Origin: an uncultured Lachnospiraceae bacterium
GTDB lineage: Bacteria; Bacillota; Clostridia; Lachnospirales; Lachnospiraceae
Assembly (NCBI GenBank): GCA_947626365.1
Contig: CANQRW010000021.1
Coordinates: forward strand, 1 to 46,879
Length of the DNA stretch: 46,879 nt
Direction of reading: 5' to 3'
Position 1 is the stretch's first letter, and the number at the start of each line of letters is the position of its first letter. Under the pieces are notes generated by a model. That model was given only the letters and a program-made list of their open reading frames with translations. It did no database searches and was not told the DNA's origin. A program made the position numbers and the translations under genes. Shown here piece by piece: positions 17,905 to 35,559 of the stretch.

Positions 17905-17975
17905 AAAATCCCTCCTTTTATCATGAAGGTCCAAGGCAGAGGCGCATGAACCTTCAGTGAATCTTAGATTTCTGT

Positions 17976-18431
17976 TTACTTTGCCAAAAGCTTCTCCAAC
18001 AGTGCCTGACACCCTTCCAGCACATCCGCATAGGTCGTCTCAAAATCTCCGGTATACCATGGATCCGCGATGTCGCGCGGGTGATCCGTAAAATCCAGCA
18101 ATTTAAAAATTTTCCCATCCGGATCCCCGCCTGTGATCCGAAGCATATTGCGGATGTTCCACTGATCCATTCCGATTAGATAATCATACTCCTGATAATC
18201 CCGCCGCGTCATCTGCCGCGCGTACTTGCCCGCAGTGGAAATGCCCTTCCGCCTGAGCAGATCGCGGGTCCCATAGTGGACCGGATTGCCAATCTCCTCC
18301 GTGCTGGTGGCTGCGGAGGCAATATAAAACTGCGCGGAACGATGAACGCGCTCCACCATATCCCTGAAAACAAATTCCGCCATAGGCGAACGGCAGATAT
18401 TGCCGTGGCAGACGAAAAGTACCTTTATCAT
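17976..18431 (-). CDS. Low-molecular-weight protein-tyrosine phosphatase
   Basis: 151 residues, full length for the family. The P-loop CHGNICRS supplies nucleophile C8 and R14, and the general acid Asp is D123 in the DPWYTG loop. Such enzymes remove phosphate from tyrosine kinases of capsule or exopolysaccharide synthesis or from other phosphotyrosine proteins; no kinase is nearby. AGGAGG lies about 9 nt before the ATG and a clear promoter lies at 18478-18506. It is the first gene of a likely unit with Gfo/Idh 3 and acyP. Confidence 0.95.
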   Translation of the reverse strand: MIKVLFVCHGNICRSPMAEFVFRDMVERVHRSAQFYIASAATSTEEIGNPVHYGTRDLLRRKGISTAGKYARQMTRRDYQEYDYLIGMDQWNIRNMLRITGGDPDGKIFKLLDFTDHPRDIADPWYTGDFETTYADVLEGCQALLEKLLAK

Positions 18432-18477
18432 AAATAAAAATCCTCCTGAAATGCCTTGATATACCCTGTTTTACCGC

Positions 18478-18506
18478 AATTTACACTGTTTTACTTTACC
18501 GGTCAA
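18478..18506 (-). promoter_or_regulatory. Promoter of the tyrosine phosphatase unit
   Basis: On the minus strand TTGACC (18506-18501), 17-bp spacer, TAAATT (18483-18478), 46 bp before the ATG at 18431. Confidence 0.7.
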
Positions 18507-18509
18507 ATT

Positions 18510-19600
18510 ATCATGAGCAAAACGTGGTAAATCGAGGTTAGTTGGAGACGTCAATCGTAGTAGAAAAGTAATAGAAAGTAAAGGGCACTACTACAAGTAC
18601 TCAAGCATGAACCGGTTGAATAAAATAATATAAAGTATCGACGTTTTCCCCTCGTTCGTAAGTAGGGATATATTAATTTCCTTGTTTTATAATTCCTTTA
18701 AAAACATTTCAGTTAACATACAGTTTACTATCACGTCTGCCCTTCCTTCGACAATCAGTCCGCTCATCAGGCTGTTGGCCTCTAGCATTTTGTCCAGGCC
18801 TAAAGTATCGGCAAGCGAGATGCTGTGGCGCGGCCTGCGAAGCGAAAAGCTACAGTGGTTCCAACTGATATGGTATCAAACCCATTGCTACCTTATCACC
18901 GATAGGTAAAGCTATATCTGTCGGAATAAATCTGCTATATCCGCTGACTTTTCTGGTACAACTGCATTCTGCGGAAGAAGGATGACTTATCAATAACCAG
19001 TTTTATATCCTTCAGATCTTCTACAGCAATTTCTTCCAGATCCTTCGGAAAAATAGCCTCTTTGTCCTTAACCAACGGTGATATACCTACGCAGTAAAAA
19101 ATGTCATAGCCAATATTATTTTTTTACCTTCTTAACCATCCGTTCTTCATTTCAAATAATGGTTCTCATTCCCAGTGCGTAACCTACCATAGCCCTTTAT
19201 CCCTTCAAGCCACTAGCTTTTTTATCAGAGACGGATATTACCAAGCTTCTATTATTATCTGCAGCCTTGATATCAACAGCCTAGGCTTCTCCATCACATT
19301 CAAAATGACATCCAAAGTGACATTTAAAATGTCCCTTTGAAAGTAAACGCCGTGTGCCAATATTCTGACATTTCAAGTACTCTCTCAAATATGCCTGTTT
19401 TATGCCATTTTATCAAGTAATTTTGAAATAATAAGACTGCTATTGTGATTTTTTACTGTACTCCCCAATACCTGTTTTTTGAAATCTTACTTACACTACA
19501 TATCTCTTTTTAAATCAAATTCAACGCATCACCATAACACAGCAACTTATCCAAATTGTAAGATAAACAATATTACCCGATTTGCATACTGAAAAAGATC
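18510..19600. other. AT-rich gap with broken coding remnants
   Basis: No intact gene, tRNA or insertion sequence end is visible in about 1.1 kb. On the minus strand several stop-interrupted stretches still read like protein, for example YDIFYCVGISPLVKDKEAIF, LEEIAVEDLKDIKLVID and, lower down, LGLDKMLEANSLMSGLIVEG in another frame. They are consistent with a decayed gene in which frames have shifted. The first two loosely resemble the effector domain of LysR regulators, but this is not secure. The sequence marks the left edge of the defence island. Confidence 0.55.
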
Positions 19601-19610
19601 TATCTGGTTT

Positions 19611-20456
19611 CTATATTTGCACCAACTTCTCAAATAATCGTTCCACATTCTTTACAACATCTACCCAGGCATAATCCGCAGCGTAATCATATTTATGCTG
19701 ATAGATTCCCCATTGCTCCATCAATCCAGCATCCGATTTAATCTGTTCCAAAATATGCTTCGAACCTGATAAAAGCTCATACGAATTCCTCTTTCTGCTT
19801 GTAGCCTCAAGCGCCTTCGCTAAATCAGCATAATTTATCGCATCTGATTTAATAATATTCAAAATCATAAGATCATAATAATCCCTCATCCGCGTATTTA
19901 ATGTTCCCCGTGAGATTATAGTCTCCATTTTTTCCGCCAATACCGTTTCAAGATTATAAGCCAGTAACGGTATGCTGCGCTCTTCGAACATCAGCTTATA
20001 TTCATAATTCACTTCTCCCGGCGTAATTACATCATCTGTGGAAATGTCCATTTTCAAAGGGGTTTTCATAGTATCCAATACCGCTTCCAATTTAAAGCGG
20101 ATTCCCGGATATTCTGCTTCATCCATAATACTTTCAACACCCTTAATGGCAAACCGTATTCCATCATCAAGGGAGACAGCAATAATATCCTCTACCATCT
20201 TTCTCGCACCCTCTGCCGAAAGATTATAATTTCGCATTGTAGTATCTATATCCATGGTTGCCCGATTCTCCAGCCCCACCATGGAAGCGACCAATAACCC
20301 GCCTTTTAATATTAAATTGCCGCTATATTTTGATAAAGACATCCGTTCCAGAAATCGTTCCATTACGAAATTTCGGATCAGTGTCATAGCCTTTGCATTA
20401 TCGCCATGAGATCTATTTCTTACCAAAGCTTTTAATTGTCTTGATGTATGGATCAA
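19611..20456 (-). CDS. AbiEii/AbiGii-type nucleotidyltransferase toxin
   Basis: 281 residues. The polymerase-beta-like nucleotidyltransferase motifs are present: ILKGG (49-53), the TMDID metal site (67-71), PLKMDIS and the motif IV region LETVLAEKMETIISRG, TRMRDYYDL. AbiEii toxins of type IV toxin-antitoxin systems stop growth during phage infection by modifying RNA; members of this nucleotidyltransferase class transfer nucleotides to tRNA. The ATG overlaps the antitoxin stop by 4 nt (ATGA), so translation is coupled. Length is normal and all key residues are present, so it is probably active. Confidence 0.92.
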   Translation of the reverse strand: MIHTSRQLKALVRNRSHGDNAKAMTLIRNFVMERFLERMSLSKYSGNLILKGGLLVASMVGLENRATMDIDTTMRNYNLSAEGARKMVEDIIAVSLDDGIRFAIKGVESIMDEAEYPGIRFKLEAVLDTMKTPLKMDISTDDVITPGEVNYEYKLMFEERSIPLLAYNLETVLAEKMETIISRGTLNTRMRDYYDLMILNIIKSDAINYADLAKALEATSRKRNSYELLSGSKHILEQIKSDAGLMEQWGIYQHKYDYAADYAWVDVVKNVERLFEKLVQI

Positions 20457-21043
20457 AGCAACGCCTCCATGTATTGCCTGATTTTTTTCTCCACCTGGAG
20501 TATTTTGGCATATTCCATAAGTCTCGGCAGGTTTTTCTTTCCACTCAGATATTCTTTTACAGCAAATTGTTTTTCCTGCATTTCCGCATCAATTCTAAAA
20601 ATATCGCACAGAGTTCTCTCTGCGTTATAGCATGGAACTGTATGCCCATATGGCGTAACAGCAGTATCAATGCCAAGGGAATAGCGTTCCTCAACAGCCG
20701 TTATCTTTTTTAGCGGACTTTTCCCTTTATAAACTACCTTATATCCTCTCGGTACAGTAACCGTAAAACAGACCGGCTCCCGTTCTGATAACCCGAGCAA
20801 ATACAAAGCTGTATCGTGGGAATAGACAACTTTCTTATACTGGAGGGAAATAATATACAGATCGTCCTGCCACGCATCAGGTGCCAGATATACGCCTTTT
20901 GCAACCCTTTCATAATTTCTTTCCTGCAAATACTGAATTGCGTACTGCCTCGAAATACCCTCCGCAACGATATCAGAAATTTGTATAATCCCTTGGTTTT
21001 GTACCATTTTTGCTTCAATGATTTCTTTTTTATTTACTTTCAT
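20453..21043 (-). CDS. AbiEi-type antitoxin / transcriptional repressor
   Basis: About 196 residues from the ATG at 21043. The N-terminal winged HTH (QGIIQISDIVAEGISRQYAI, YLQERNYERVAKGVYL) is typical of AbiEi antitoxins, which bind their own promoter and block the toxin through a C-terminal domain. The start is chosen from promoter geometry: a strong -10 ends 7 nt before the ATG and there is no Shine-Dalgarno sequence, so the mRNA may be leaderless. An upstream in-frame start (21079) lies inside the -35 box and is therefore rejected. The second in-frame ATG, QNQGIIQ, at about residue 13, is an alternative. Confidence 0.88.
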   Translation of the reverse strand: MKVNKKEIIEAKMVQNQGIIQISDIVAEGISRQYAIQYLQERNYERVAKGVYLAPDAWQDDLYIISLQYKKVVYSHDTALYLLGLSEREPVCFTVTVPRGYKVVYKGKSPLKKITAVEERYSLGIDTAVTPYGHTVPCYNAERTLCDIFRIDAEMQEKQFAVKEYLSGKKNLPRLMEYAKILQVEKKIRQYMEALL

Positions 21044-21050
21044 ACAACAT

Positions 21051-21079
21051 ATTATAACGGGATGTGGTTTGAAAGTCAA
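21051..21079 (-). promoter_or_regulatory. Promoter of the AbiE operon, leaderless geometry
   Basis: On the minus strand TTGACT (21079-21074), 17-bp spacer, perfect TATAAT (21056-21051), then 7 nt and ATG at 21043. Transcription should start at or 1 nt before the A of the start codon. Confidence 0.75.
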
Positions 21080-21244
21080 CTTTTATGTGTTATCAGAACT
21101 TAGTTTTCAGAAGTAACGGATATCTCATGGCTGGTGCGCTCATTGTAGACCGCATGAGTAAAACCGTTAGAAATCACCCTCTTTTATCTCCCACATACAT
21201 CATAGCATATGTGGGGAAAAAGGACATAGTCCCATTATACCCTG

Positions 21245-24223
21245 TCACCAATCCTGCATTTTGTCTTCAGCGCCAAACGTCATTTCCAGAAGTTCCGCTG
21301 CAATCTCTTTGCTGCAAACCCTCATCAGATTATCCTCGGCGTCTTCCTTTGACAGCAGGTTCATGCTTCCATACCAGACGATCTCCTGATCAATTACCGC
21401 ATAATGCTCGCAGGAATCTTCCGCCATCCGAATTTCAAATCCGGCCTTCCGCAGACGTTCCATAAGTTCCATCCGCGCATCATCCCTGCCATATTTATAA
21501 ACATCCGGATGCCATGTAACGATTGTCACTTTGACTCCGGATTCCTGACGCTTGCCAAGAACAATTATGGTGCGGTTCACCTTCTGATTGTTTAACCTTG
21601 GACTGGATATTATGACACCTGATTTGGCCTCTTCCAGATCTCTCCAGTATATCTCCGCATAGTTGTCAATATCATAAATGGCATTTGCCTTCTGTTTTTC
21701 TCCGTCCATGCTGACACAGAGTTCATATCCGATCTTTTTGTATGCCTTTAGCCTTGCCGCGTACATTTTATCGAATTTCGGAATATGGCTGTCCACATAA
21801 TCATATACGATGACATTTTCTTTTCCTTCATAATCCCTGTTAAGACGGCCGACATACTGCTCTACCACATTCTCTCCTGAAACCGGAGTCGCCATAAACA
21901 GGGTATCCAATCTCGGATAATCAAAGCCTTCTCCAAGCAAAGAGCCCGTTCCTACAAGGATAAGACTTTCTGAATCTTCCACCGCATTCAGCTCTGCCAC
22001 CTGGGCTCTGCGCGCTTTTGTACCATCAGAACCTGTCAGAAGGATCAGCCTATCAGCATATTTTTTCAGCTTTTCCGACAGCCTCCTGGCATGGTCAACA
22101 TATTTGGTCAGTACGACCGGAGTTCGGCCAGCTTTCACACAATCCGCCACATCCCTGATAATCTGCTCATCGCGAACGTCATTGTTCCTTATCAGTTCAT
22201 AGGCATCATTGCCATACGGAGTCTTAGACAAATGGTGCGGCTTTACTGTACGTGTGAAACGGGGATATACCAGATGATCGATATTCTGCTCTCTGGCTCT
22301 GTCCTTTGCCGTAAACCTATACCTGACAGGACCAAGAAGAAACTCGTTTATCTTTTCTTTGCCGTCTCCGCGTTTTAGTGTCGCCGTCACGCCATACACA
22401 TATTTTGCGTTGACTGCCTGAAGCACCTCGATTGCGCTGTCGGAAGCGGCATGATGACATTCGTCGAAATATACCTGCTCGTACTCCTTTAGCATAGGAT
22501 GAAAACCGTCTTTCTTTTTCAGGGAACGTATCATTGCTACATCCACGATCCCCGTCAGGGTGTCATGTGTACCCTGAAGATTTCCGATCAGGGATTTTCT
22601 TTTCCTCGTTTGACCAGTCTTTGTTTTATATTCCGGCAGTTCCTCATCAATGTCCAGGAATTCCTCCAGACGCCTGAGCCACTGATTCATCAGATCCGTC
22701 CGATCTACAAGTATTAAAGTGTTCACGCCTCTCCTGGCGATCATACTGCAGCATACGACCGTCTTTCCAAACGCTGTGGCGGCATGAAGTATACCGGTTT
22801 CATTTTCAAGCATTGACTCCACAGCCTGTACCTGCGACTCTCGCAGTTCTCCTTTAAACGAAACACGGATCTTCCGGCCCTCTGAGCGCTTGTCCTCTAT
22901 TTCATACCTGATTCCGGATTTATCAAAACGCTTCAGGATCTCTTCCCTGAGTCCCCTCGGCAGGACAATATATTTTCCCTCGTCAGCTCCAAGATAAATG
23001 AATCTTGATTCATCATAATTAGGCATATCCATCGCCTGGTTCTGGAAATACTGCCTGTTTGAGAATGTTGCCATTCGGCGCAGCTGCCTCTTTATCTTAT
23101 TCGACATTCCCGAGGAATCTATATAAATACGGTCAGCGAATACGATATGCACCGTACCCTTCACGCCGCCTGCGTCTATCTCCGAGTCCTTATCCCATGG
23201 GGCGTCGTTATCATCCGCTTCTCCTGTACCGCCTGCGCAATACCATAAGGAAAGATAATCTTCTATCTCCTGTCTGCTTAACCTTTTCGTTCCTGCAAGC
23301 GCTTTTAACTGATCCTCATATGCGTTCCAATTATCATCAACAAAAGCACTGTTACCCGCTTTCAGAGCCAGCCCCTGCAGCGGAAGGGCAATGACATTGC
23401 CAAAGCCTCCCTCCGGAAGAACATCCTGATTCGGTATCATGCGGTCATAGTACTTGAAAGACTTTAGATTTACAGATTCCGCGCCTTTTTCAAGCAACGC
23501 GAAACCAAATCTCCTTGCCAGTCTGGCCGGGATCATTTCCTTAAAGAATATCCAAAGATGCGCGCCTCGCCCCGATCTCGACCGTTCCGCCAAAGCGTCT
23601 ATATTAAGATTCCTGCAAATGCGGCGCAGGGCATTTATCTCCTCTTTCCAGTTATCATCAGCATTCGCATGGTCTTCCTGCTCCGCCCCTTTTGCGTGAT
23701 TATCAAAATCGAATACCAGCAGCTGGCAGAGGTTGTTCTCCAGCGTCGGATAAATTGCCACCACATCATTCCCGTTTGGATCCGCGCCGATCATGTGCGC
23801 TTTTATCAGCGGCAGTGTGAGCGGTTTATATGCTTTTAACTCACAGTCTTTGCATCGAACGCCGTCCTTTTTCTGTTTATGACAGCCCTGATCCCATCGA
23901 TTAAAGCATTGCAAATAATACCCGTTTTTTCCTGTTTTTGGACTTGTGTAGCGAAGGTCAAACACATCCTTTCTTCCACGGCAGAACATCATAAAAAAGT
24001 CGTTGGCAATCCTATCCGTAACTTCAAATTTCTTTATTCTGGCTCCCTGATCCGGATCGTAAATATCTGCAGGTTCATTATTATTGTCCGTTACAATATC
24101 CGCATACGAAATCCCGGCTTCATCAAGGCGCTTTTTCAGAAGCAGGTTTTCCTTCTCCAATGCCGCAATCTTTGCCTGCAGCTCTCCTGCTGCGTCCGAT
24201 TGACGCTGTCCCGATTCCTCCAT
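21245..24223 (-). CDS. TOTE-type archaeo-eukaryotic primase / SF2 helicase / PLD protein
   Basis: 992 residues. A coiled-coil start (15-38) precedes an AEP primase domain (about 70-330) with a Cys cluster (C106, C114, C124, C127), the metal motif VFDFDNH (170-176), SGRGAHLWIFF (217-227) and FGNVIALPLQ. The SF2 helicase (about 455-800) has Walker A AATAFGKT (481-488), DECHH (587-591), GVTATLKRGDG and QYVGRLNRDY. The C-terminus is a phospholipase-D-like domain ending in EHYAVIDQEIVWYGSMNLLS; the usual HxK of the HKD motif reads CxH. The architecture is that of proteins named after the TOTE conflict systems. It probably acts on nucleic acid as a defence or repair effector. ThpR (62 bp upstream) and the AlbA_2 gene seem part of the same unit. 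No Shine-Dalgarno sequence lies at the usual distance. Confidence 0.88.
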   Translation of the reverse strand: MEESGQRQSDAAGELQAKIAALEKENLLLKKRLDEAGISYADIVTDNNNEPADIYDPDQGARIKKFEVTDRIANDFFMMFCRGRKDVFDLRYTSPKTGKNGYYLQCFNRWDQGCHKQKKDGVRCKDCELKAYKPLTLPLIKAHMIGADPNGNDVVAIYPTLENNLCQLLVFDFDNHAKGAEQEDHANADDNWKEEINALRRICRNLNIDALAERSRSGRGAHLWIFFKEMIPARLARRFGFALLEKGAESVNLKSFKYYDRMIPNQDVLPEGGFGNVIALPLQGLALKAGNSAFVDDNWNAYEDQLKALAGTKRLSRQEIEDYLSLWYCAGGTGEADDNDAPWDKDSEIDAGGVKGTVHIVFADRIYIDSSGMSNKIKRQLRRMATFSNRQYFQNQAMDMPNYDESRFIYLGADEGKYIVLPRGLREEILKRFDKSGIRYEIEDKRSEGRKIRVSFKGELRESQVQAVESMLENETGILHAATAFGKTVVCCSMIARRGVNTLILVDRTDLMNQWLRRLEEFLDIDEELPEYKTKTGQTRKRKSLIGNLQGTHDTLTGIVDVAMIRSLKKKDGFHPMLKEYEQVYFDECHHAASDSAIEVLQAVNAKYVYGVTATLKRGDGKEKINEFLLGPVRYRFTAKDRAREQNIDHLVYPRFTRTVKPHHLSKTPYGNDAYELIRNNDVRDEQIIRDVADCVKAGRTPVVLTKYVDHARRLSEKLKKYADRLILLTGSDGTKARRAQVAELNAVEDSESLILVGTGSLLGEGFDYPRLDTLFMATPVSGENVVEQYVGRLNRDYEGKENVIVYDYVDSHIPKFDKMYAARLKAYKKIGYELCVSMDGEKQKANAIYDIDNYAEIYWRDLEEAKSGVIISSPRLNNQKVNRTIIVLGKRQESGVKVTIVTWHPDVYKYGRDDARMELMERLRKAGFEIRMAEDSCEHYAVIDQEIVWYGSMNLLSKEDAEDNLMRVCSKEIAAELLEMTFGAEDKMQDW
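21314..21364. repeat. Direct repeat with 26204-26254 (46 of 51 identical)
   Basis: This segment of the TOTE gene, encoding MNLLSKEDAEDNLMRVC, recurs at 26204-26254 with five substitutions. Confidence 0.85.
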
Positions 24224-24285
24224 AATAATCTATCACACTCCCGGCAGTTCACTGAGGAATTTCTTCCTGCTTTTATTTCTATGTC

Positions 24286-24795
24286 CTAATGTATCCCCGC
24301 AGAATCCCGTCCGATCAGCTCTGTATAGACCCGCTTCCCGTCCTTTTGTTCCGACTTCATCAGCGAAATCCTCTTTACCATCATTTCTCCCTTAGGCGCC
24401 GGCACCTGCTGCCAGGGACCAGACGCTTTTCGTATCATGGTGATATGCGGCATGAATTTCTTTCTGTCATAATCGACGCCGGCGGCATCCAGTGCGTCGC
24501 GGACCGATCTTACCGCTGCCGAAAGACCCTGGTTTCCCTTAAGTCCGATCCAGACAAGATCGCCAAAGCAGCCCATATCCGACAGAGAAAGCCGAAATGG
24601 CCTGAAGGAAATCGTGTCAATGGCCGCTTTCACCGCGGCCGTATCCTCGGTTTCACCGATAAACGCCAATGTCAGGTGCAAATTCCGCGTTGGGACATAG
24701 CTTCCTTTTACACCTGCTTTTTTGAGCGCGTGCATCACTCCGGTGATGGAAGAACTCATCTCTTCCGACAACTGTATAGCAACAAACAACCTCAT
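24286..24795 (-). CDS. thpR: RNA 2',3'-cyclic phosphodiesterase (2H family, 2'-5' RNA ligase type)
   Basis: 169 residues. Both 2H motifs are present: HLTLAFIG and HITMIRKA; the protein begins MRLFVAIQLSEEM as in ThpR/LigT. The family opens 2',3'-cyclic phosphates on RNA, or related 2'-5' linked nucleotides. AGGAGG lies 6-7 nt before the ATG. It is between the AlbA_2 gene (31 bp upstream) and the TOTE gene (62 bp downstream) on the same strand, so an RNA-end or nucleotide-signal processing role in that module is likely (inference). Confidence 0.93.
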   Translation of the reverse strand: MRLFVAIQLSEEMSSSITGVMHALKKAGVKGSYVPTRNLHLTLAFIGETEDTAAVKAAIDTISFRPFRLSLSDMGCFGDLVWIGLKGNQGLSAAVRSVRDALDAAGVDYDRKKFMPHITMIRKASGPWQQVPAPKGEMMVKRISLMKSEQKDGKRVYTELIGRDSAGIH

Positions 24796-24826
24796 AACCG
24801 TTCCTCCTTCTGATGGCGCATATTGA

Positions 24827-26080
24827 TTATTTTATCACGTACTTAGTACCTCTTCCCCTGCCTTCAATTTTTACAATGCCCTTTTTATCCATCTCCTTCA
24901 GTAATTGCGTTGTCTTTGATTTGCCAAACTCAACATAAGGAGCGATTTCGCTGATTGATTTCAACATTGTCCTGCTTAAATATTTATATACTTTTCTTTC
25001 ATCTTCCGATAAATTCAGGTTTTCCTCAAAAACCGGGAGTACAATCTTAATTGTGTTTTCCGACAATTCAAAGTCCGGCTGTCTTAATCCTTTTTCATAA
25101 AGTTGTTTTATCCGCGTTATTCCCGTACCGAATATTTCGACAAATCCCAGCCTGTAAAATACATTTGCAAGATTTCTATTTCTTAAGGCCGAAAGTTTTC
25201 CCGATAAATACTCATCTTCCGTGATTCCGGATGGCAGTCCTCCCGGAGAAATAATTTCTACTCTGTCATCGAACATCGAAACCCTTATTTGCGACTCCAC
25301 ATCCCATAAACGGTGGATCAACGCGTTTGCGATTGCTTCTCTGAATGCAGCCTCCGGTATTTTCTCTACCTTCTTCCGATCGGCGCCCCGTATTTCTTCG
25401 TATTGATAATAATCCCTGAATACTTCCAATACCTTTTCATATACAGCCAAAATGGATATATGATCAAACGTCGCTCTCTTATGGATCACACTGATGTTTT
25501 CACCGAACCTCACAATATCAATTCCCGGGAAATGATTTTTGTCCGCCAAAATACCAGCCGCATTATTGTATCCGCTGGCGCTGTTATATAAATTCAATGT
25601 TTTCAGGGTATCCTGATTAAAGGTTTCAAGCTGAATGCAGTCTTTCAATTCCTGACACAAAGTATCAAACGTCAGTTCCTGATCCTTGCACGGCAATTCT
25701 TCAAAGCTGATATTTTTCCCCTCCAAAATCAATCTTGACAACTCCAATGAGTCAACCTCTATTGTTGCGGTATCATTTCGTTTGTATGCTTTCGATTTAT
25801 ATAAATATGGCTTTTGAAGCCCGCTTTTTACCGTCAGCTTTATCGTTCTGTCATTATTCTGCAATTCCAGCGTGTAATCAGGCTGCGGAGTAATACTGTC
25901 ATTCACTTTGTTTTCAATATCTAGGCACGCCTGTTTTACATCAGGCAGTCCCTTGATATTACCATTGTCATCAAAGCCGAAAAGAATTTCTCCGCCATCG
26001 TAATTCGAGAAGGCGCTTACCGTTTTTAGAAATGTATTCGTTATCTTTTCTTTGAACTCCGTTGTTCTCGTTTCACGCAT
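24827..26080 (-). CDS. AlbA_2/Schlafen-like ATP-binding transcriptional regulator
   Basis: About 417 residues from the ATG at 26080. The first 130 residues form an AlbA_2 domain (ETRTTEFKEKITNTFLKTVS, GGEILFGFDDNGNIKGLP). The middle and C-terminal parts match the RecG-like/HATPase_c_4 domain (IPEAAFREAIANALIHRLWD, VEIISPGGLPSG, GFVEIFGTGITRI), followed by a winged helix (ISEIAPYVEFGKSKTTQLLK). Such proteins often regulate or belong to defence loci; the direct activity is not known. A longer open frame reaches 26254, but its extra residues copy the end of the TOTE protein and are a rearrangement scar, so 26080 is preferred (AAGGGAA upstream). It is probably the first gene of the AlbA_2-thpR-TOTE unit. 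Confidence 0.82.
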   Translation of the reverse strand: MRETRTTEFKEKITNTFLKTVSAFSNYDGGEILFGFDDNGNIKGLPDVKQACLDIENKVNDSITPQPDYTLELQNNDRTIKLTVKSGLQKPYLYKSKAYKRNDTATIEVDSLELSRLILEGKNISFEELPCKDQELTFDTLCQELKDCIQLETFNQDTLKTLNLYNSASGYNNAAGILADKNHFPGIDIVRFGENISVIHKRATFDHISILAVYEKVLEVFRDYYQYEEIRGADRKKVEKIPEAAFREAIANALIHRLWDVESQIRVSMFDDRVEIISPGGLPSGITEDEYLSGKLSALRNRNLANVFYRLGFVEIFGTGITRIKQLYEKGLRQPDFELSENTIKIVLPVFEENLNLSEDERKVYKYLSRTMLKSISEIAPYVEFGKSKTTQLLKEMDKKGIVKIEGRGRGTKYVIK

Positions 26081-26203
26081 ACGCTGTGCTTCCCTTCCAG
26101 TTTTACTGCTTATATTATACGCGGAAACAGCCAGAAAATCAATCGTATTTTTTTTCGATTGATTTTCTGACCGTTTCCGGTTATTAAATTTCAAAACCTT
26201 ACC

Positions 26204-26254
26204 GCAAACTCTCATCCGATTATCTTCAGAGTCTTCCTTTGACAGCAGGTTCAT
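26204..26254 (-). pseudogene. Fragment of a second TOTE gene 3' end
   Basis: The minus strand encodes MNLLSKEDSEDNRMRVC, nearly the same as the PLD tail of the TOTE protein (46 of 51 bases identical to 21314-21364). Similarity stops sharply on both sides. It is a remnant of a paralogous gene or of a recombination event in the 209-bp gap between the Wadjet operon and the AlbA_2 gene. Confidence 0.8.
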
Positions 26255-26289
26255 TCTGTCACCACAGCAATTCTCATATCGTATACCTT

Positions 26290-27588
26290 CTACACCTCGC
26301 CCACAACATCATCCAGCAGCTTCTCCAATAAATTCTCCTGGTACCCCGCCAGTTTCTCTTTCTGTACCAGTTCCGCCGTCTGACACAGCGCCGTGTTCTT
26401 AAGCCTTTTAAGCTTGGCCAGCTGCCCGTTGCTTATCGCTTCACCGGATATCGACTCCCTGTAGTCTGCTGCCCCCATCCTCCACAGATGAAGCCTGTCC
26501 TTGTACCGCTGCCACAACCGGTCCGCAATATCCATTCCGGCCGGATCCAGATCCCCGCTGTAGCGGATGGCCGCGCCCCTTTCCGCCAGATAATCCAACA
26601 GCCGGATCGCGGCCGCGCGCAGCTGTCCGGACGTACACAAAATCGAAACATCCCGATTTTTCGCATTCTCCACTAAATACAGAAAGACCATTTCATTTTC
26701 AACGACATATACCGTGTTATGATCCGCTTTTGCGCCTGTGATGGATCTCAGGTTCTCTGCTGTGAGTACATAGGGTTCTTTTCGGTGATAAAATGCCTCG
26801 TAAGCCGGATGCGGCCCGTCCGCCGTTTCCAGCCGCACGCCAAATACATGAACCATGCTGGCGATATTGTCTGGCACGATCCCCACCGACTGCATACATT
26901 CCCGCCATTCATACGCGCCTTGGGGTACATCCATGTTCTTCCAGAAGCAGACCGCGTGCGTCAGCAGCTGCCCGGCCACAGTTCCCCTGTCAAAATAGTG
27001 CGGATTTCCGGAAATATTTGCCGCGAATACTGCCAGAAGGCTCTCTTCTCCCTCCGTTTCTTCCAGACGGAGCAATGCGCGGCCTGTGTTTCGGGCAAGA
27101 ATTTCCGCGCCCTTTGGGTCTTTAGCAAATTCTTTTATCAGGATCTGGTAGCCATACTTTTTCCGGCCCCACAGCTCCCGGATCCAATGAAACGCCGCCG
27201 GCCTGTTTTCACTGCAGCCTTCAAAGCAGGACAAAAGTCTTTCAAAAAATTCTTCTCTCGCCCTCTGCGCCTGCTCTTTCTGCTCCTGGTTTGTCTTCAA
27301 TGGAGCCGCGAAATACTCTTCCAGCACCGTTTTCATATCGACCGGAGCGAAACGGGTTTTCTGCAGTCCCCGCTCAAATTCCTGAAATGTAATCGCTATG
27401 ATTTCGTCTGTAAAAGACTTTCCAACGATACCGCCGATTGCTCTCCGCTCCGCTTCCGTGGCGTTCTTAAGCGTAACGCTGCCCGCCGTTCTCCCGAAGC
27501 TTTTCCACTTTCTCCGAAGCTCTCTCATGAGCCTTGAATAGGCTTCATTTTTCTTCAGATACCCAGCGCACTCTTTGTTATTGCACAT
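26290..27588 (-). CDS. jetD: Wadjet JetD, Toprim-type DNA nuclease subunit
   Basis: 432 residues. The N-terminal half resembles DUF3323 and the C-terminal half the Toprim-like DUF2399 domain: VYVVENEMVFLYLVE, ILCTSGQLRAAAIRLLDYL and SGDLDPAGMDIADRL, which supply the acidic metal site. JetD/MksG cleaves plasmid or other closed circular DNA that the JetABC condensin has extruded. The start overlaps the jetC stop by 11 nt. Key acidic residues (E in VVEN, D-x-D in GDLDPAG) are kept, so the nuclease is probably active. The last gene of the operon; no clear terminator follows before the scar at 26204. Confidence 0.9.
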   Translation of the reverse strand: MCNNKECAGYLKKNEAYSRLMRELRRKWKSFGRTAGSVTLKNATEAERRAIGGIVGKSFTDEIIAITFQEFERGLQKTRFAPVDMKTVLEEYFAAPLKTNQEQKEQAQRAREEFFERLLSCFEGCSENRPAAFHWIRELWGRKKYGYQILIKEFAKDPKGAEILARNTGRALLRLEETEGEESLLAVFAANISGNPHYFDRGTVAGQLLTHAVCFWKNMDVPQGAYEWRECMQSVGIVPDNIASMVHVFGVRLETADGPHPAYEAFYHRKEPYVLTAENLRSITGAKADHNTVYVVENEMVFLYLVENAKNRDVSILCTSGQLRAAAIRLLDYLAERGAAIRYSGDLDPAGMDIADRLWQRYKDRLHLWRMGAADYRESISGEAISNGQLAKLKRLKNTALCQTAELVQKEKLAGYQENLLEKLLDDVVGEV

Positions 27589-30500
27589 CTAATATCCTTT
27601 CATGCCCGTTCCATGTGTAGCGGATCACCGTCACGACCTGGGAGTTCATCGGCCGATGGAGTTCCGCGATCTTGATTCCTTTTACCGTCTCATAGCAGCC
27701 CCACAGGGACTGGGAATTCATAATATAATCCAGATCCATCTTGTCTACCAGCTCAAACATACTGCTGATATTCTTATCGTCCACCCCGGCGAACGCCTCG
27801 TCCAGCGCGATCATCCGCGGATGTTCCTCGTAATCCGCCTTCTTATACTGGGCGTTTACGGCCGCGAAGAGAGGAACATACATCGCCATTGCCTTCTCGC
27901 CGCCGCTGAACCGGTTAAAGGCCGCGTTCGTCAGCGGCTTTTTGTTCTCTTCACCCCGCCTGTAGAACATCTGAAATTCAAACCATTTCCGATAATCCAG
28001 CGCGTCGCGAACCAGTTCCATATAATTGATCAGGCTGCCCTCTTCCTCCAGTCTCATCTTCTCCATTCGAATCTTACTCCGGAAATGTCCCGCGACTTTT
28101 TCAATGTCCTCCACCGTCAGCAGCTCGCGGTCACGCAGCAATATCTGCTCCAGCTCCAGCGTGTCCAGTTCCGTATCATTCTCCGCGCTCCTGGGCTTCC
28201 ACTCCAGCGAAAAGCTAAGCCCCATAGAAGTATCCAGCTGCTTCATGAGATTTGACATATCCCTGACCCAGCTTCGGCTTTCCGCGATCCGGTCTGTCAG
28301 CTGCTGGCTGATGGTCTGGGACAGGATATCCTCGAACAGTTCCCGGTCCTTCTGCTGGATCAACAGCTCTGTCTCGTCAATCGCTGATTTCAGGATCTGA
28401 TAGAATTCCTCCAGATACACCTTTTTCCCGTTCCACGCGGACGCCACCCGGACTCTTTTCCGGAGAGCCTGGAACTGTGTACCTACGCCCGACTGCTCTC
28501 CGACCGATTCAAAGCATTCCTCTATCGAAGTTCCATAGCTTGCAAGACTGCCGTTATGCTTCTGATACACCTGAACCAGCGCCTGCAGCATTTCCCCATA
28601 CTCGCGGCTCTTATCGCTGTCGCGCAGCAGCTTGACGGCCTCTTTCGCGCAGTCCGCCAGCGTGCGGTTTCCCCTTTCCAGCACGAATTTCAGCGCCAGT
28701 TCCTCTTCAAAAAATTTACGTAAAAGCGTCTCCTCCGCGATCAGCTCCTGCAGGCGCGCCCGCTTCTCCGGCTCGGCTTTCCGCAGGTTTTCCAAGGTCT
28801 GGTCTTTTCGGATACGCTCCTCATTACAGACTTTTTCCTGCTCTTCTGTCCTTTTGATCTCGCTCTGCAGCTGCTTAAGCCGTCTGGCTTTCTCCGCGAT
28901 CTCCGGCCTGTTTAAATATTCTTCATACTGGCGAATCCGGATCTCGCATTCTTTTATCCTGGTGCCGCAGGAGCGCTTATCCACAAAAGCGTCGTCCATG
29001 CCCTGTTCATCCCGCTCCAGATATTCCTGCCCAGTCACAAGTCTGCTTCTCTCCGTCTCCAGTTTCAAAAGCAACTCCCTGCATTCCTGCCAGAGATGCT
29101 GATATTCCTCCAGGGTGTTTAATACCTCAACATACTCCTTTTCTGTTCTGCCATAGGGAAATGATCTGCATTTCTGAAGCACTTCCTGATACTGAGACTG
29201 CTTCCTGGCCGCCCACTCCCTTTCCTGCTGCTCCTGTTTTGCGCATTCCCCGCTGACAAGGTCCAATTCCGCGCTGCACTCTTTTTCGTGTCCAAGAGCC
29301 TGATCCAGTTCATAAAAATCCGGGATACCCTTATATTCCGATTCCAGCCGCGCTAACCCCTGATCAGCGTCAGCGTTCTTCTCCTGCAGACGCAGAAGTT
29401 CCTGTTCTCCTTCTGAAATTGCCTGCTGCAGGGCTTCGATTTGCTTCTGTCTCCTCCTCTGGCGCGCCAGATATCCCAGAAATTCCGCTTCCGCCTTCTC
29501 CGCTTTTCCTGCTAAGATCCCCTGCAGGAACCGCCCGTCCTCTCCCAGATAAATGCCGGTCTGCGCCCCCGCTTTTTCATAAATACTGCTTAATATCTTC
29601 CGGACACTTTCCGCCAATTCCGGCGCCAGTTCTTCACTTACTGTCAGTTTAGAAAAGCTGGAGTTTCCTTTTTGCGGCACGAAGATCACAGTATCCAGAA
29701 ATTCCGGACACGACTCCGCGATTTGAGCGTAATCCTTTTCCGACACAACCAGGGCATCCAGCAGGCCCATACGCTCTAACTGCGCTTCCAGTCTCGCACA
29801 CTCCCCTTCCGGCAGTCCGTCAGCAAACTCCACCGTCCTGTAGAAGGGAACGGCATCGATCCCGGCGGCCTCAAGGCGCTGCCTGGAATATAAAGTACTC
29901 TCGCTCCTGTCAGGCTCGATCTCTTCCCTGTTCTGTATGTCAGCCAACTCCCGCCTTGCGGTATCCAGTTTTTCCTCACATAAACGGATCTCCTGCAGAA
30001 CTGCCTGCTTCTTTTCAAGCCGCTCCGCCCTCTGATTCTCATAATCCTTTCGGAACAGTTCCTGGATCTGCCCCGCGTCCGCAATATTCTGATATTGCCG
30101 GATCCTGTCCTCCGCTTCTTTTAGGAGAGACTCCTGCGGCTTCCAGCATTCAGCAGTCTTAGCCTGAGCGTATAACCTCTCAATCCAGTGGTCCTGGCTC
30201 CCAAGCACCTGCTGCCGCGCATCCCCCAGCGCCTGTTCCTTCTTATTCTTCTCCCTGCCGGTACGCTCCAGTTCCTCAGCAATTTCATCGTACTTACGCG
30301 AGATCTCTTCAAAGTCATGGAGCAGCCTTCTGCATTCTTCCACCAGTCTTCTGTACAGCAGCAGACTGTCCGAAATCACTTCAGCCCCATCAGTCCGTTC
30401 CATACCGATAAAACGCAGGACTTTTTCATGTCCGTCCCACTTCAGTATCTCCTGATTCTCCTCCATGCTCTGCCTGCGGCGTCGGAGCATGTCCTGACGC

Positions 30501-31642
30501 TCTTCAAGCATATCCTGAAGTTCCTTTATTTCCTGTTCTCTTCGGTAAATCCTCGCCTGGTACTCATCGATTTTTTCGGCCAGCCTGCGCTCTTTTTCCT
30601 GCATTTCCGCCATTTCTTTCCTGGCCGTTTCCATCTTGCGGTCGATTTCCTGCAGATCCGCGTCCAGCAAACCGTCCCGTTCCGTTTCCGCCAGACGTTT
30701 CTGCTCAGAAAGCTCGTTCAGGCGAACGTCCAGTTCCCGCAGCGCGTCGGCTAATTCCTTCGCCTCATTTTGCCTTTCCTCATATTCCTGCTGCGCGTTT
30801 TCCGTTTCCTCTTTCTTTTTCAGATAGAACTGCGCCTTCTTCGCCAGCATATACTGGTTATAGCGCGTATACTCCGTCCGGATGATCCTTACATCCGCAA
30901 ACGCGCGGTTCAGCATATCCAGGCTGTCCTGGATCTCATCCATCTTCTCCATGGCTTCCACCATCGTGCGCAAGTCCTCGTCCGACAGTGTCTGTAAGGA
31001 TTCATTTAGAATCTCGTATACTTTCGTCGGCTTAAATTCCTTGGAAAGCTTCGGCGCGCGCACCTTTACCAGAAGCCGGATGAACTGCTCGTACTGCTCC
31101 GCCTTCCGAAAGCCGAAGATATATTGATTGACCAGCTTCTTGTATTCGCTCTGGCTGTCGGTAAACAAATTGCCCTCTCCCAGCACGGCCTTCATTTCTC
31201 TTTTATCATAAGGGATCCGGGTGCTTCCTGTCTCTTTATACAGCTGCAGATCGTAGCCGACCCTCTGCCCGTCCAGAATGAGAAATCCCCAGAAATCCAT
31301 AGGTTTGCCTCGTTTTGCCCGCTGCCCGATCTCTATGGTACGGTATTCTTCCGCATGCTCTTTTTTGAACTCCAGGAAGAGATAGCCTGTCGCCTCGTCT
31401 TTCCCCTCTTCCCCCAGGAAATAATATTCCATCCTTCTGTCGCTGGAGCCGAAGGGATCCAGGCGGCTCGGCGTGCGGTCGCCGTCCAGGACGAACGGAA
31501 TGAAGCTCTGCGTCGTGATCGATTTGCCGGAGCCATTCTGTCCCCTCAAAAGGAGTTTGCCGTCATAAAAATCAAAACACTCTTCATCGTATAACCAGAA
31601 ATTTACGAATCCGATACGATTCATTTTCCATCGACTGCTCAA
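27578..31642 (-). CDS. jetC: Wadjet JetC, SMC/MukB-like ATPase
   Basis: 1354 residues. The N-terminal ATP-binding head has FDFYDGKLLLRGQNGSGKS with Walker A (34-41) and the ITTQSFIPFVLDGDRTPSRL segment; long coiled coils (about 240-420, 440-600, 740-1000) with a hinge-like region near 650-720 follow; the C-terminal head has the ABC signature FSGGEKAMAMYVPLFAAV and Walker B RMIALDEAFAGVDDKN. JetC/MksB is the motor that extrudes DNA loops with JetA and JetB. ATG overlaps the jetB stop by 4 nt. Full length, no frame break seen. Confidence 0.94.
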   Translation of the reverse strand: MSSRWKMNRIGFVNFWLYDEECFDFYDGKLLLRGQNGSGKSITTQSFIPFVLDGDRTPSRLDPFGSSDRRMEYYFLGEEGKDEATGYLFLEFKKEHAEEYRTIEIGQRAKRGKPMDFWGFLILDGQRVGYDLQLYKETGSTRIPYDKREMKAVLGEGNLFTDSQSEYKKLVNQYIFGFRKAEQYEQFIRLLVKVRAPKLSKEFKPTKVYEILNESLQTLSDEDLRTMVEAMEKMDEIQDSLDMLNRAFADVRIIRTEYTRYNQYMLAKKAQFYLKKKEETENAQQEYEERQNEAKELADALRELDVRLNELSEQKRLAETERDGLLDADLQEIDRKMETARKEMAEMQEKERRLAEKIDEYQARIYRREQEIKELQDMLEERQDMLRRRRQSMEENQEILKWDGHEKVLRFIGMERTDGAEVISDSLLLYRRLVEECRRLLHDFEEISRKYDEIAEELERTGREKNKKEQALGDARQQVLGSQDHWIERLYAQAKTAECWKPQESLLKEAEDRIRQYQNIADAGQIQELFRKDYENQRAERLEKKQAVLQEIRLCEEKLDTARRELADIQNREEIEPDRSESTLYSRQRLEAAGIDAVPFYRTVEFADGLPEGECARLEAQLERMGLLDALVVSEKDYAQIAESCPEFLDTVIFVPQKGNSSFSKLTVSEELAPELAESVRKILSSIYEKAGAQTGIYLGEDGRFLQGILAGKAEKAEAEFLGYLARQRRRQKQIEALQQAISEGEQELLRLQEKNADADQGLARLESEYKGIPDFYELDQALGHEKECSAELDLVSGECAKQEQQEREWAARKQSQYQEVLQKCRSFPYGRTEKEYVEVLNTLEEYQHLWQECRELLLKLETERSRLVTGQEYLERDEQGMDDAFVDKRSCGTRIKECEIRIRQYEEYLNRPEIAEKARRLKQLQSEIKRTEEQEKVCNEERIRKDQTLENLRKAEPEKRARLQELIAEETLLRKFFEEELALKFVLERGNRTLADCAKEAVKLLRDSDKSREYGEMLQALVQVYQKHNGSLASYGTSIEECFESVGEQSGVGTQFQALRKRVRVASAWNGKKVYLEEFYQILKSAIDETELLIQQKDRELFEDILSQTISQQLTDRIAESRSWVRDMSNLMKQLDTSMGLSFSLEWKPRSAENDTELDTLELEQILLRDRELLTVEDIEKVAGHFRSKIRMEKMRLEEEGSLINYMELVRDALDYRKWFEFQMFYRRGEENKKPLTNAAFNRFSGGEKAMAMYVPLFAAVNAQYKKADYEEHPRMIALDEAFAGVDDKNISSMFELVDKMDLDYIMNSQSLWGCYETVKGIKIAELHRPMNSQVVTVIRYTWNGHERILDVQ

Positions 31643-32775
31643 TCTGTCTCCGCCCCCTTAAAATCTTCCGGGTAGAATCCCGCCTGCTTTCCCGCCGCCG
31701 GCAAAATAATCACCCTGTTATCGTCCTCCCGGATCAGCATCCAGTTTTTCATATAATGTTTCACCGTCTCGACCAGCTTGTCTTTCTCCATTTCCCTGTA
31801 CTCTTTGCTCCACCCTGCGCTCCCGTTCTTTCTGCACGCCAGGATCAGCTCCGAAAACCGCTGCTTCGTGACCGCTATCGTCTCGTTATCCTGTTTCACC
31901 AGCTCTCCCTTCCGCAGAGCCTCCCGGATATGCGCGCAGACGAGCAGCACGATTTCAGGAAGCATGGCGTCCCTCGGATGAACCGTTCCGTAGCAGTCGT
32001 CCTCTTCCAGCACAAAGAGCGCCGCATTTTTATAAATATCCAGCTTTCCGCCCAGATTTTCTTCCAGGTATCTCGCGACCCACTGCCTCTGGTTTTTCAG
32101 ATACAGAGAGTCCGCATCCTCATTTCCGTCCCAATACATGGCCGGGCACACCGCAAGCTGTCTGTATACACGATGGATCCTCTCGGCTCCCCTGTTCTCC
32201 TGGATCTCTTCAAACCTCTGCTTTTCAAAATCCTCCCACGTCTCAAAACCGGAGATATCCATAGGGAAATTTACTGCAAAATATTTGGAATACCCGGTAT
32301 TCTCATACAGAACTTCCTGCCCCTGCTCCAGGCCAAAGGCTTCGCTGCTGCCTTCATATACCCGAAGCATCTGCATTCTTTCCATATACTGCAGGGCCCG
32401 TACCAGCGATTTCCGTTGGGAGAAGGACGTCCAGTCGATGGAAACTTCTCCTTTTAATTTCGTCTCCACATAGTCAAGCAGTTCCGAAAGAAGAAACTGT
32501 TCTCCTTCCTCTCTGTCTTCCAGATACATGAGCACGACACACAAGATACAATAATCCAGAACATCCGAGAATTCCTGGATCCCCATAAAGCTTTCGGCAT
32601 GCGCCGGTATCTTCTCCAGCTTCAGTAGATTCTCCGTATGGATCAGTTTCCAGCCCAGCTGTTCCCCTATAAATCTCTGGAACGCCGGAATCTCTCTTTT
32701 TATTCTGTAATAGCCTTCCTTGTCCGTATCCTTACAGACCCAGAACTGTTCAAAAAGCGTTCTCACCGCATTCAT
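31639..32775 (-). CDS. jetB: Wadjet JetB, MukE/MksE-like subunit
   Basis: 378 residues. Recognised mainly by its position between jetA and jetC and by a DUF4194/MksE-like layout: a winged-helix-rich protein with YILCVVLMYLEDREEGEQFL, SFSQRKSLVRALQYMERMQM and a C-terminal AVTKQRFSELILACRKNG region. In Wadjet it bridges the kleisin JetA and the ATPase heads of JetC. The start is 1 nt after the jetA stop, and the stop overlaps jetC by 4 nt, so translation is coupled. The sequence is divergent, as expected for this subunit. Confidence 0.85.
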   Translation of the reverse strand: MNAVRTLFEQFWVCKDTDKEGYYRIKREIPAFQRFIGEQLGWKLIHTENLLKLEKIPAHAESFMGIQEFSDVLDYCILCVVLMYLEDREEGEQFLLSELLDYVETKLKGEVSIDWTSFSQRKSLVRALQYMERMQMLRVYEGSSEAFGLEQGQEVLYENTGYSKYFAVNFPMDISGFETWEDFEKQRFEEIQENRGAERIHRVYRQLAVCPAMYWDGNEDADSLYLKNQRQWVARYLEENLGGKLDIYKNAALFVLEEDDCYGTVHPRDAMLPEIVLLVCAHIREALRKGELVKQDNETIAVTKQRFSELILACRKNGSAGWSKEYREMEKDKLVETVKHYMKNWMLIREDDNRVIILPAAGKQAGFYPEDFKGAETD

Positions 32776-32776
32776 A

Positions 32777-34246
32777 TCATTTAAACTCCAGTATATACGC
32801 CGGCATGGTCAGATCGCCATCCTCGCACTTTAAGACGCATGTGCCTTCCTTCTGCAGCAGCTGATATTCCTGTCCAAATTCCGTCTGACCAGATTTCTGA
32901 GAGCTCATATTCGCCATGGTAATCCATTGCAAAAATATATTTTTCGTCATTTCCGGAATCGGTCCTGCTATTTCCGAAAATATGATCTTCTTATTCTTTA
33001 CATAGCGCATTACGATTTCTTCCTGATTTCTCACGCCCTGCAGATAAGCTTCCCTCTGCATCATCTTTTCCAACGATTTATCAGAAAACCCCCGTCTGTC
33101 TTTTTTCTCACGATAGGTCCGGCTGCGGGGCCTTATCTGGAATTCCGCAGGCGGCTCCTCGTAAATACTGCCGTTGATCCGATCCTCTTCCCTCGGACAA
33201 TTCGTCTTAAAATGCTGGATCTTCTGAACGCCGAAAACATGGGCGGACAGACAGTGCGCGTCCTCTAAATTCTCGCACCGCAAAAACATCTGCAGAAATT
33301 TCTGATAATCATCTTTACGGCTGATTCCCCAATTCTGCAGCTGCACGATCAGCGCGGCGTTCTGTATGATGCTTCTGATAACGTCGTTCGTAATCTGTAA
33401 AACCTTCCGGCTCTCGCAGTCCCTTTCCGGGGTGTCGATGAACCATCTTTTCAGGGAATTCCATTTCCCCATAACGTTCTCTCTGATATTCGGCTCCAGG
33501 TTGCCGCGAAACTCTGACAGGGCGTGTGGTATATCCAGCTCGCTTTGAACCACTCTTTCCAAAATCACATTTTCAATGACAGGCGTCTGCCGCACCAGGA
33601 TCTGTTCCATCCGCTTGGAATAACGCTGCAGCTCCTGCACAAAATCCGTCAGATAGGTGATAAATTTATCCTTATGCAGAACAAACTCTACGGATTTCAT
33701 AAGGCGCTCGGTTTTGCCGGAATAAAAATCCCTCAGATAATCCTGATAGTTCTGATTCAGCCGCTTAAAATCCTCCTGCAGCAGGTTCCACCACTCGTTT
33801 ACTTCCTTTAAGCCGGCGTCCTGCATCATTTCGGCTTCGCCGACGCTCTTTTCCAGCCGCACAAAGAAATTCGTAGAAAGACTGGCAGATTCCATGAAAA
33901 GGTTCTCCAGCCGCACCGTAAGCCGCTCGATCTCCACCGCGTATTCCGACATGGTATAACGGTACTGCTTATTCTTATAATCCTGTATCGTATACACCTT
34001 CCCCGGATCCTGGATCGGCGTCAGGTTCTTCCATCTTACCAGCGCGTCCAGGTCCAGCTCCAGCTGATTCATTGTATAATCCAAAAATTCATCTTCCTCT
34101 TTCAGCAGCGCATACACATCTTCTTTGTATAACTGGAAATGCATCTTTTCATATTCACGATAGAAATAACGCATGATCTTCCGATAGATCCCGGCGTTGG
34201 GAACAGACAGATACGAGGTTTCGTTGATCGCTTCTAATCGCTGCAT
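32777..34246 (-). CDS. jetA: Wadjet JetA, kleisin subunit (DUF5716-like, type III)
   Basis: 489 residues. Helical, mainly charged protein beginning MQRLEAINETSYLSVPNAGI, RKIMRYFYREYEKMHFQLYK, with a long helical middle and a C-terminal winged-helix-like end. This corresponds to the MukF/MksF-type kleisin that closes the JetC ring. The DUF5716-like JetA with a DUF2399-type JetD points to Wadjet type III (subtype from memory). GGGAG lies 7 nt before the ATG and a good promoter at 34299-34327. First gene of a tightly coupled jetABCD operon that is fully intact. Confidence 0.85.
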   Translation of the reverse strand: MQRLEAINETSYLSVPNAGIYRKIMRYFYREYEKMHFQLYKEDVYALLKEEDEFLDYTMNQLELDLDALVRWKNLTPIQDPGKVYTIQDYKNKQYRYTMSEYAVEIERLTVRLENLFMESASLSTNFFVRLEKSVGEAEMMQDAGLKEVNEWWNLLQEDFKRLNQNYQDYLRDFYSGKTERLMKSVEFVLHKDKFITYLTDFVQELQRYSKRMEQILVRQTPVIENVILERVVQSELDIPHALSEFRGNLEPNIRENVMGKWNSLKRWFIDTPERDCESRKVLQITNDVIRSIIQNAALIVQLQNWGISRKDDYQKFLQMFLRCENLEDAHCLSAHVFGVQKIQHFKTNCPREEDRINGSIYEEPPAEFQIRPRSRTYREKKDRRGFSDKSLEKMMQREAYLQGVRNQEEIVMRYVKNKKIIFSEIAGPIPEMTKNIFLQWITMANMSSQKSGQTEFGQEYQLLQKEGTCVLKCEDGDLTMPAYILEFK

Positions 34247-34298
34247 GCTGCTTCTCCCTGGTTTTTGATTCTTGATTCCTGCTTCCTTTTACATACCC

Positions 34299-34327
34299 AA
34301 TATATCATTTACGCAAGTATTTCACAA
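34299..34327 (-). promoter_or_regulatory. Promoter of the Wadjet operon
   Basis: On the minus strand TTGTGA (34327-34322), 17-bp spacer, TATATT (34304-34299), 52 bp before jetA. It lies just after the terminator of the ribosomal operon. Confidence 0.65.
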
Positions 34328-34359
34328 GTGACATTTACCGAAACTGCACTTATCATATG

Positions 34360-35553: not shown

Positions 35554-35559
35554 GTAAAT

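Follow-up and report, generated by a model that had tools for sequence, protein, structure and literature searches.

Comparison with described systems

Proteins in which an AEP primase domain is followed by a helicase have been described as CAPP-helicase, the third type of CAPP_A (CRISPR-associated primase-polymerase), and in the accessible part of that work a similar AEP-helicase layout is termed the most prevalent among the non-CRISPR relatives (PMC8211822). TOTE conflict systems, according to the accessible part of PMC12458937, owe their name to TPR, OB, TBP and Effector. The present analysis concerns a locus with likeness to both, located in a 46,879-nt stretch of DNA from an uncultured Lachnospiraceae bacterium (GCA_947626365.1, contig CANQRW010000021.1, positions 1-46,879) and hereafter called the window. 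Three minus-strand genes encode an AlbA_2 (Schlafen core) - HATPase_c_4 protein with a weak winged helix-turn-helix (wHTH) region (417 aa, 24827..26080), ThpR, an RNA 2',3'-cyclic phosphodiesterase of the 2H family (169 aa, 24286..24795), and an AEP primase - superfamily 2 (SF2) helicase protein with a degenerate PLD domain (992 aa, 21245..24223), which is the 'TOTE' of an earlier note on this DNA and is referred to below as the primase-helicase. The gaps between the genes measure 31 nt (AlbA_2-ThpR) and 62 nt (ThpR-primase-helicase). The earlier note had treated the three genes as one unit, which was not borne out by the comparison of related loci. The explanation favoured here, and given an even chance, is a CAPP-helicase-like primase-helicase in a defence hotspot, accompanied by an exchangeable Schlafen-type gene and by ThpR as a passenger.

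Like CAPP-Helicase, the window protein carries an AEP domain and then a helicase domain. It differs by a PLD-like tail and by a score of only 71.2 for NCBIfam PrimPol_Msp (cut-off 200). Neither a cas gene among the 20 window proteins scanned nor a CRISPR-like direct-repeat array in 17000-36000 was found. The best solved matches of the AEP domain are 7nqd and 7nqf, labelled TPR_REGION protein and presumably representing the Marinitoga CAPP.

The likeness to TOTE conflict systems lies in the AEP domain, which fits PF22548 (AEP-TOTE) with 248.8 bits (cut-off 27). A Pfam scan of 20 window proteins revealed no TPR or TBP gene; for this reason the name 'TOTE' in the sense of the TOTE system, as used in the earlier note, should not be applied to the window locus on present evidence. 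Among the wider neighbours, no TPR or TBP appeared in the 25 commonest of 106 families, where single cases are still possible. A single-stranded DNA-binding protein, a protein with an OB fold, is encoded at 34705-35358, beyond a Wadjet operon, and the trio proteins gave no OB-fold match.

As far as the accessible part of a 2026 survey goes, backup effectors include proteins combining a Schlafen RNase, a minimal kinase and a wHTH, for which close linkage to loci of the BREX type is given for at least 1017 taxa; preprint work on phage defence by bacterial Schlafens is also cited there (PMC12839542). The AlbA_2 protein shares with these Schlafen RNase - minimal histidine kinase - wHTH effectors, so far as that part describes them, the SLFN_AlbA_2 and HATPase_c_4 domains, the conserved carboxylates and a wHTH match that is weak and below threshold. 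It differs in being linked to an AEP-helicase and to Wadjet instead of BREX, and its RNase activity is a predicted one. The PLD tail of the primase-helicase matches MkoC of Mokosh, a helicase-PLD protein in PADLOC (E 3.7e-7); this match spans residues 844-974 only, and the window protein differs further in its ResIII/XPB-type helicase and in the presence of an AEP domain. ThpR scores above the equivalog cut-off of NCBIfam TIGR02258 (116.1 bits, cut-off 65.7) and matches LigT_PEase (55.1 bits, cut-off 23.3), contains both HxT motifs (HLT and HIT) and aligns to the solved enzyme 5ldi; what distinguishes it is its position next to a primase-helicase. In a literature search conducted largely without subscription papers, no description of the AlbA_2-ThpR-TOTE trio was recognised.

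Distribution of the three-gene arrangement

A pattern scan of a species-genome collection returned 51 primase-helicase loci, 43 of them at 81-94% identity and eight at 67-76%. A close homologue (E 1e-60 or better) is present in 52 of 397 family genomes, and a sample of 398 genomes from the phylum contained 37 with the AEP-TOTE domain, 36 of these above the cut-off. For the comparison of gene neighbourhoods 99 loci were offered, 98 passed (E 1e-20, 38% identity), and after removal of 13 duplicates 85 distinct loci of the Lachnospiraceae type were retained. Short duplicates (L001-L023, L075-L103) and loci with a broken or remnant primase-helicase gene (L118, L119, L122) were kept out.

The intact trio was found in one of the 85 loci, the window alone. 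ThpR is located within 6 kb of the primase-helicase gene in three loci (the window, G023 and G025), all from one genus; the 62-nt gap is the same in G023, while a DUF3089 gene lies between the two genes in G025. A ThpR profile widened to more distant sequences added no matches, and the 23 wider AEP loci, the 20 arbitrary stretches and the 20 Wadjet loci were all without one. The difference between 3/85 loci and 0/40 control loci is weak (P 0.31). The window's genome, G023 and G025 each contain a single ThpR match, and in seven other genomes of the genus a diverged ThpR, in one case partial, is located elsewhere. Close relatives of the primase-helicase (about 94%) have other partners or none. 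On these counts the trio was rejected as a conserved unit.

The viral collection yielded no relative of the primase-helicase in a pattern scan able to find close relatives only. Matches were obtained to 2,023 phage records, none covering 80% of the query, and the 15 phage matches listed have 22-29% identity and their centre in the helicase half. Among plasmids 477 records match, four of them covering 80% of the query, and the three examined end at the helicase. A second, diverged helicase-type match with 28% identity and one in-frame stop is located in the window's own genome (G000, contig 99, 5287-6648; L002).

Exchange of partner genes

Within the 85 loci, ThpR accompanies the primase-helicase in three, AlbA_2 in 20, a metallophosphoesterase in nine and JetC of Wadjet II in three. 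A calcineurin-like phosphoesterase, the tightest partner seen in the family, is encoded immediately upstream in nine loci (L032:9264-9995 and eight others, one with a 57-aa fragment only), and in several of them its frame overlaps the start of the primase-helicase gene by 4 nt. On a tree of 61 primase-helicase proteins (FastTree), adjacency of the phosphoesterase takes three changes (shuffled mean 7.7). Adjacency of AlbA_2 takes nine, about as many as with shuffled labels (mean 9.4), and seven of the nine are forced by well-supported branches.

Wadjet II precedes the primase-helicase in the window, in L060, where a 90% identical AlbA_2 gene but no ThpR is present, and in L073, which has neither; Wadjet I does so in L027, a single locus found without a systematic search for Wadjet I. 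A general Wadjet-primase-helicase pair was considered and rejected, as 20 Wadjet II loci from other family genomes (drawn from 26 with a JetC2 match) had no primase-helicase nearby.

A remnant of the 3' part of the primase-helicase gene is situated on the minus strand between JetD2 and AlbA_2 (26199..26257) and is 86% identical to 21309-21367. Judged by this identity, the 59-nt segment is a scar of an earlier copy of the gene. A weaker, possible C-terminal scar lies upstream of the primase-helicase gene in L045 (7284-7349; 22 aa, 59%), and the two scars point to repeated replacement around this gene. The AlbA_2 frame is open over 24827-26254 on the minus strand. The conserved start is the ATG at 26080, which lines up with the L060 and L104 starts, and the extension 26081-26254 is not AlbA_2 and overlaps the 59-nt copy. 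The open reading frames and the start alignment thus agree with the gene positions, strand, gaps and AlbA_2 start given in the earlier note.

An AlbA_2 gene or fragment was detected within 6 kb of the primase-helicase gene in the above 20 loci, and in 12 of the 85 it is no more than 300 nt away and on the same strand, on either side. With the same profile AlbA_2 was found at 0/20 Wadjet II loci (Fisher P 0.009) and in 1/20 stretches of 20 kb from family genomes bearing the primase-helicase (Fisher P 0.05), these stretches having been picked by hand at round positions without a random generator. The flank searched per locus was 8.9 kb on average and short in some loci. A density estimate from a single-sequence search (0.7 matches expected in the flanks) was set aside, as the profile is more sensitive, and the like-for-like controls were used. 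Outside the family, AlbA_2 is near one of 23 wider AEP loci (L202).

Among immediate neighbours, Pfam SLFN_AlbA_2 was assigned to 6/76 upstream and 4/68 downstream. These neighbours are open reading frames of at least 80 aa on either strand (a few shorter), some of them probably spurious; 76 of 78 were scanned upstream, two primase-helicase fragments being omitted, and all 68 downstream, with PADLOC applied to the upstream set only. The scan of wider neighbours covered 79 of 82, and tallies refer to the 25 commonest families (25 of 106 in the wider set). Close relatives of the window's AlbA_2 are found apart from the primase-helicase in G011, G001 and G002. Taken together, the link between AlbA_2 and the primase-helicase looks real but loose in these surveys.

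Domains and motifs of the encoded proteins

The domain assignments of the earlier note agree with the Pfam and NCBIfam scores, with the reservation that the PLD domain has no HxKx4D pair. In the 992-aa protein the AEP-TOTE primase domain covers residues 76-322 (23258..23998, minus strand); its motifs read LVFDFDNH and SGRGAH, and the four cysteines 106, 114, 124 and 127 are conserved. The primase domain is followed by a ResIII/SF2 helicase domain (residues 459-618, 22370..22849, minus strand; 70.7 bits, cut-off 22.5) with conserved FGKT and DECHH motifs and by a PLDc_2 domain (residues 861-978, 21290..21643, minus strand; 31.8 bits, cut-off 27), in which CEHYAVID replaces HxKxxxxD. Catalytic columns were counted on 61 aligned family proteins longer than 700 aa. 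Wherever covered, the DxD and SGxGxH motifs of the AEP domain are kept (58/58 each), as are the GKT lysine (60/60) and the DE residues (61/61) of the helicase. The motif residues of the predicted primase/polymerase are intact in these 58.

The PLD domain is recognised by its profile, yet lacks the catalytic pair. Among the 57 family members with a tail, the histidine position is occupied by C in 41 and H in four, while at the lysine position there are 48 H, seven R, one N and one C, without a single K. HxK is therefore absent in 57/57, and a PLD nuclease acting together with the primase, as suggested earlier, finds no support; a canonical HKD nuclease was rejected for this subfamily. In the 23 wider loci outside the family, nine sequences have the tail, 12 stop before it and two are fragments; HxKx4D is retained in six of the nine. 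From this distribution the tail seems dispensable; it looks intact in some relatives and decayed in the window's subfamily. For this subfamily a profile match alone is insufficient to annotate the PLD domain as a nuclease.

For the AlbA_2 protein, Pfam gives SLFN_AlbA_2 with 65.4 bits (cut-off 25.3) and HATPase_c_4 with 76.9 bits (cut-off 26), while the C-terminal wHTH is a sub-threshold match only (TrmB 23.0, cut-off 25.6). In the 17 AlbA_2 rows covering the N-terminus, E3 is present in all, E8 is E in 15 and D in two, and the D38 position holds D in 12, E in four and N in one; the carboxylates given for SLFN13 in the accessible part of PMC5862951 are E205/E210/D248. The protein had been taken earlier for a regulator only. 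With the Schlafen carboxylates present and with its likeness to the Schlafen RNase effectors in the accessible part of PMC12839542, it rather resembles a backup effector and is a predicted Schlafen-type RNase.

Flanking genes and regulatory elements

The trio is flanked upstream by a Wadjet type II operon (JetA2-JetB2-JetC2-JetD2, 26290..34246, minus strand) and downstream by an AbiEi/AbiEii toxin-antitoxin pair (19611..21079, minus strand), as the domain and system scans confirmed. A low-molecular-weight phosphotyrosine phosphatase gene (17976-18431) borders the defence cluster in the window. In G013 a similar phosphatase, recognised by eye (L110:750-1229), adjoins an 87% identical AlbA_2 end and Wadjet I, and LMWPc was named for 2/68 downstream neighbours of the primase-helicase. 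This phosphatase gene may mark a hotspot. In L104 and L106, which contain close AlbA_2 copies from other places in the genus, another AbiEi/AbiEii pair, about 30% identical to that of the window, is encoded one gene further on. A CRISPR-like repeat region and a Cas1-like frame, recognised by eye from translations, were seen in G025 (L107:12750-16000) about 10-13 kb from the primase-helicase gene.

The two best coding-strand promoter-like sites in 21000-26500 are located before AlbA_2 (26142-26114) and before AbiEi (21079-21051). The former is a sigma-70-like site, TTGATT-17-TATAAT (26114..26142, minus strand), which ends 33 nt ahead of the AlbA_2 ATG. Weaker sites occur inside the AlbA_2 and primase-helicase genes. 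All of these are consensus matches only, 14 being found on both strands against 8.8 expected. The earlier note had named adjacency in this genome only and separate promoters as findings that would speak against a unit: the intact adjacency was indeed found, among the 85 loci, in the window's genome alone, whereas the consensus scan of 21000-26500 gave no coding-strand site at the start of ThpR or of the primase-helicase. A single transcript of the three genes, separate from Wadjet and AbiE, is plausible from this arrangement.

A 23-bp inverted repeat (26123..26178) is carried with the AlbA_2 gene and overlaps the -35-like hexamer of its putative promoter. Across five copies, 92.2% of the cells pair, compared to 36-50% in slid controls, and six of the 23 pairs are changed on both sides, the arms varying together between copies with G-U pairs included. 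Shuffles matched the pairing percentage in 3/500 cases and the number of two-sided changes in 65/500. The inverted-repeat model, for which 150 first-look candidates per genome were scored, occurs at one place in each of five of the 26 genomes of the genus. In G000, G001 and G011 an AlbA_2 gene begins downstream of it, as it does in G022, where this was judged by reading; the G002 contig stops at the repeat, and an AlbA_2 gene lacking its start stands at the end of another contig. Copies of the repeat thus stand upstream of close AlbA_2 relatives, and one was found upstream of an AlbA_2 remnant in L044. An operator is one possible role of the repeat; a hairpin in the RNA of read-through transcripts is another.

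Possible function of the locus

Domains, motifs, adjacency frequencies, the shared inverted repeat and the exchange scars were computed directly, and from them a likely defence purpose and the following biochemical steps can be inferred. A self-contained AEP-TOTE or CAPP-helicase-like gene would reside among defence and mobile genes of Lachnospiraceae and be re-paired repeatedly. Its SF2 helicase would engage and unwind foreign or stalled DNA, and the AEP domain would synthesise primers or complementary strands along the template so exposed, with the degenerate PLD tail serving as a DNA-binding or dimerisation part and not as a cutter. The AlbA_2 protein would be a separate Schlafen-type RNase with an ATPase-like half and its own palindromic promoter region, acting as an exchangeable backup (abortive) effector. 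ThpR would be a general 2',3'-cyclic phosphodiesterase which joined the operon in one genus as a passenger. Metal-dependent carboxylate RNases usually leave ends other than 2',3'-cyclic, so ThpR would not be expected to act on AlbA_2 products.

Several observations weigh against this explanation. The ThpR-primase-helicase junction is 93% conserved between the window and G023, and in G023 a residue of about 40 nt from the AlbA_2 3' end survives, flanked by ThpR and a type III restriction-like gene. Both indicate that the trio was stable for a while, and because of the AlbA_2 remnant the arrangement is probably older than the window's genome and was overwritten in G023. Only the AlbA_2 of L060 is near that of the window; the others beside the primase-helicase are nearly all distant and belong to several subfamilies. 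Together with the borderline result for the arbitrary stretches, this suggests that part of the AlbA_2 link may be general clustering in defence islands. The phosphoesterase profile also matched one of the 20 arbitrary stretches. Many identified neighbours of the wider relatives, as tallied in the commonest families, are not defence genes, and the primase-helicase may have a repair role. The explanations partly overlap, and the observed partner exchange could be reconciled with a repair role as well as with a loose Schlafen pair.

The primase-helicase could serve mobile elements in DNA repair or replication restart, its place in defence islands reflecting only that mobile genes gather there. 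Such a role would suit the solved relatives of its helicase part, which are XPB/RAD25 and UvsW-type proteins (the best being XPBII helicases), and a plasmid relative with a partition gene cluster on one side and integrases on the other, AbiE being some 6 kb off, as well as the mixed composition of the commonest Pfam families of wider neighbours. In Lachnospiraceae, in contrast, AlbA_2, AbiE, Wadjet and type III restriction genes are among the neighbours, and the only repair-like group in the 25 commonest downstream-neighbour families is RecQ (RQC, 3/68). The repair explanation is considered unlikely.

A Schlafen-centred pair, in which the AEP-helicase would detect invading DNA and directly license the AlbA_2 RNase while ThpR is irrelevant, is likewise held to be rather improbable. 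It accounts for the same-strand AlbA_2 genes of several subfamilies on either side of the primase-helicase, for the higher AlbA_2 frequency than at Wadjet II loci and for the case outside the family. It does not account for the 65/85 loci with no AlbA_2 within 6 kb (flanks being short in some), nor for the close relatives of the window's AlbA_2 that stand away from the primase-helicase.

Very unlikely is an integrated three-gene defence module, in which AlbA_2 would sense or regulate, ThpR would process a nucleotide signal or the ends of RNA, and destruction of the target would fall to the AEP-helicase-PLD protein. The short same-strand gaps, the good promoter-like site upstream of all three genes, and the conserved junction and AlbA_2 remnant in G023 are what such a module would leave behind. 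Against it stand the single intact locus, the restriction of ThpR to three loci of one genus, the close relatives with other partners or none, and the lost PLD catalytic pair. A short (oligo)nucleotide signal made by the AEP domain once the helicase encounters foreign DNA, switching on the Schlafen RNase via its HATPase and switched off by a phosphoesterase encoded before the primase (ThpR in the window, the calcineurin-like enzyme in nine other loci), is extremely improbable, being favoured only by two unrelated phosphoesterases in the same slot and by a related CAPP that, in the accessible part of PMC8211822, makes dinucleotides even without a template.

With the exchangeable Schlafen-type gene and passenger ThpR beside a CAPP-helicase-like primase-helicase, an attractive but fragile three-gene story is replaced by a testable one. 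Schlafen-type genes are commoner beside this widespread primase-helicase family than beside Wadjet II. If the primase-helicase and its Schlafen-type neighbour work together, a DNA-acting enzyme would be coupled to an RNA-cutting abortive effector.

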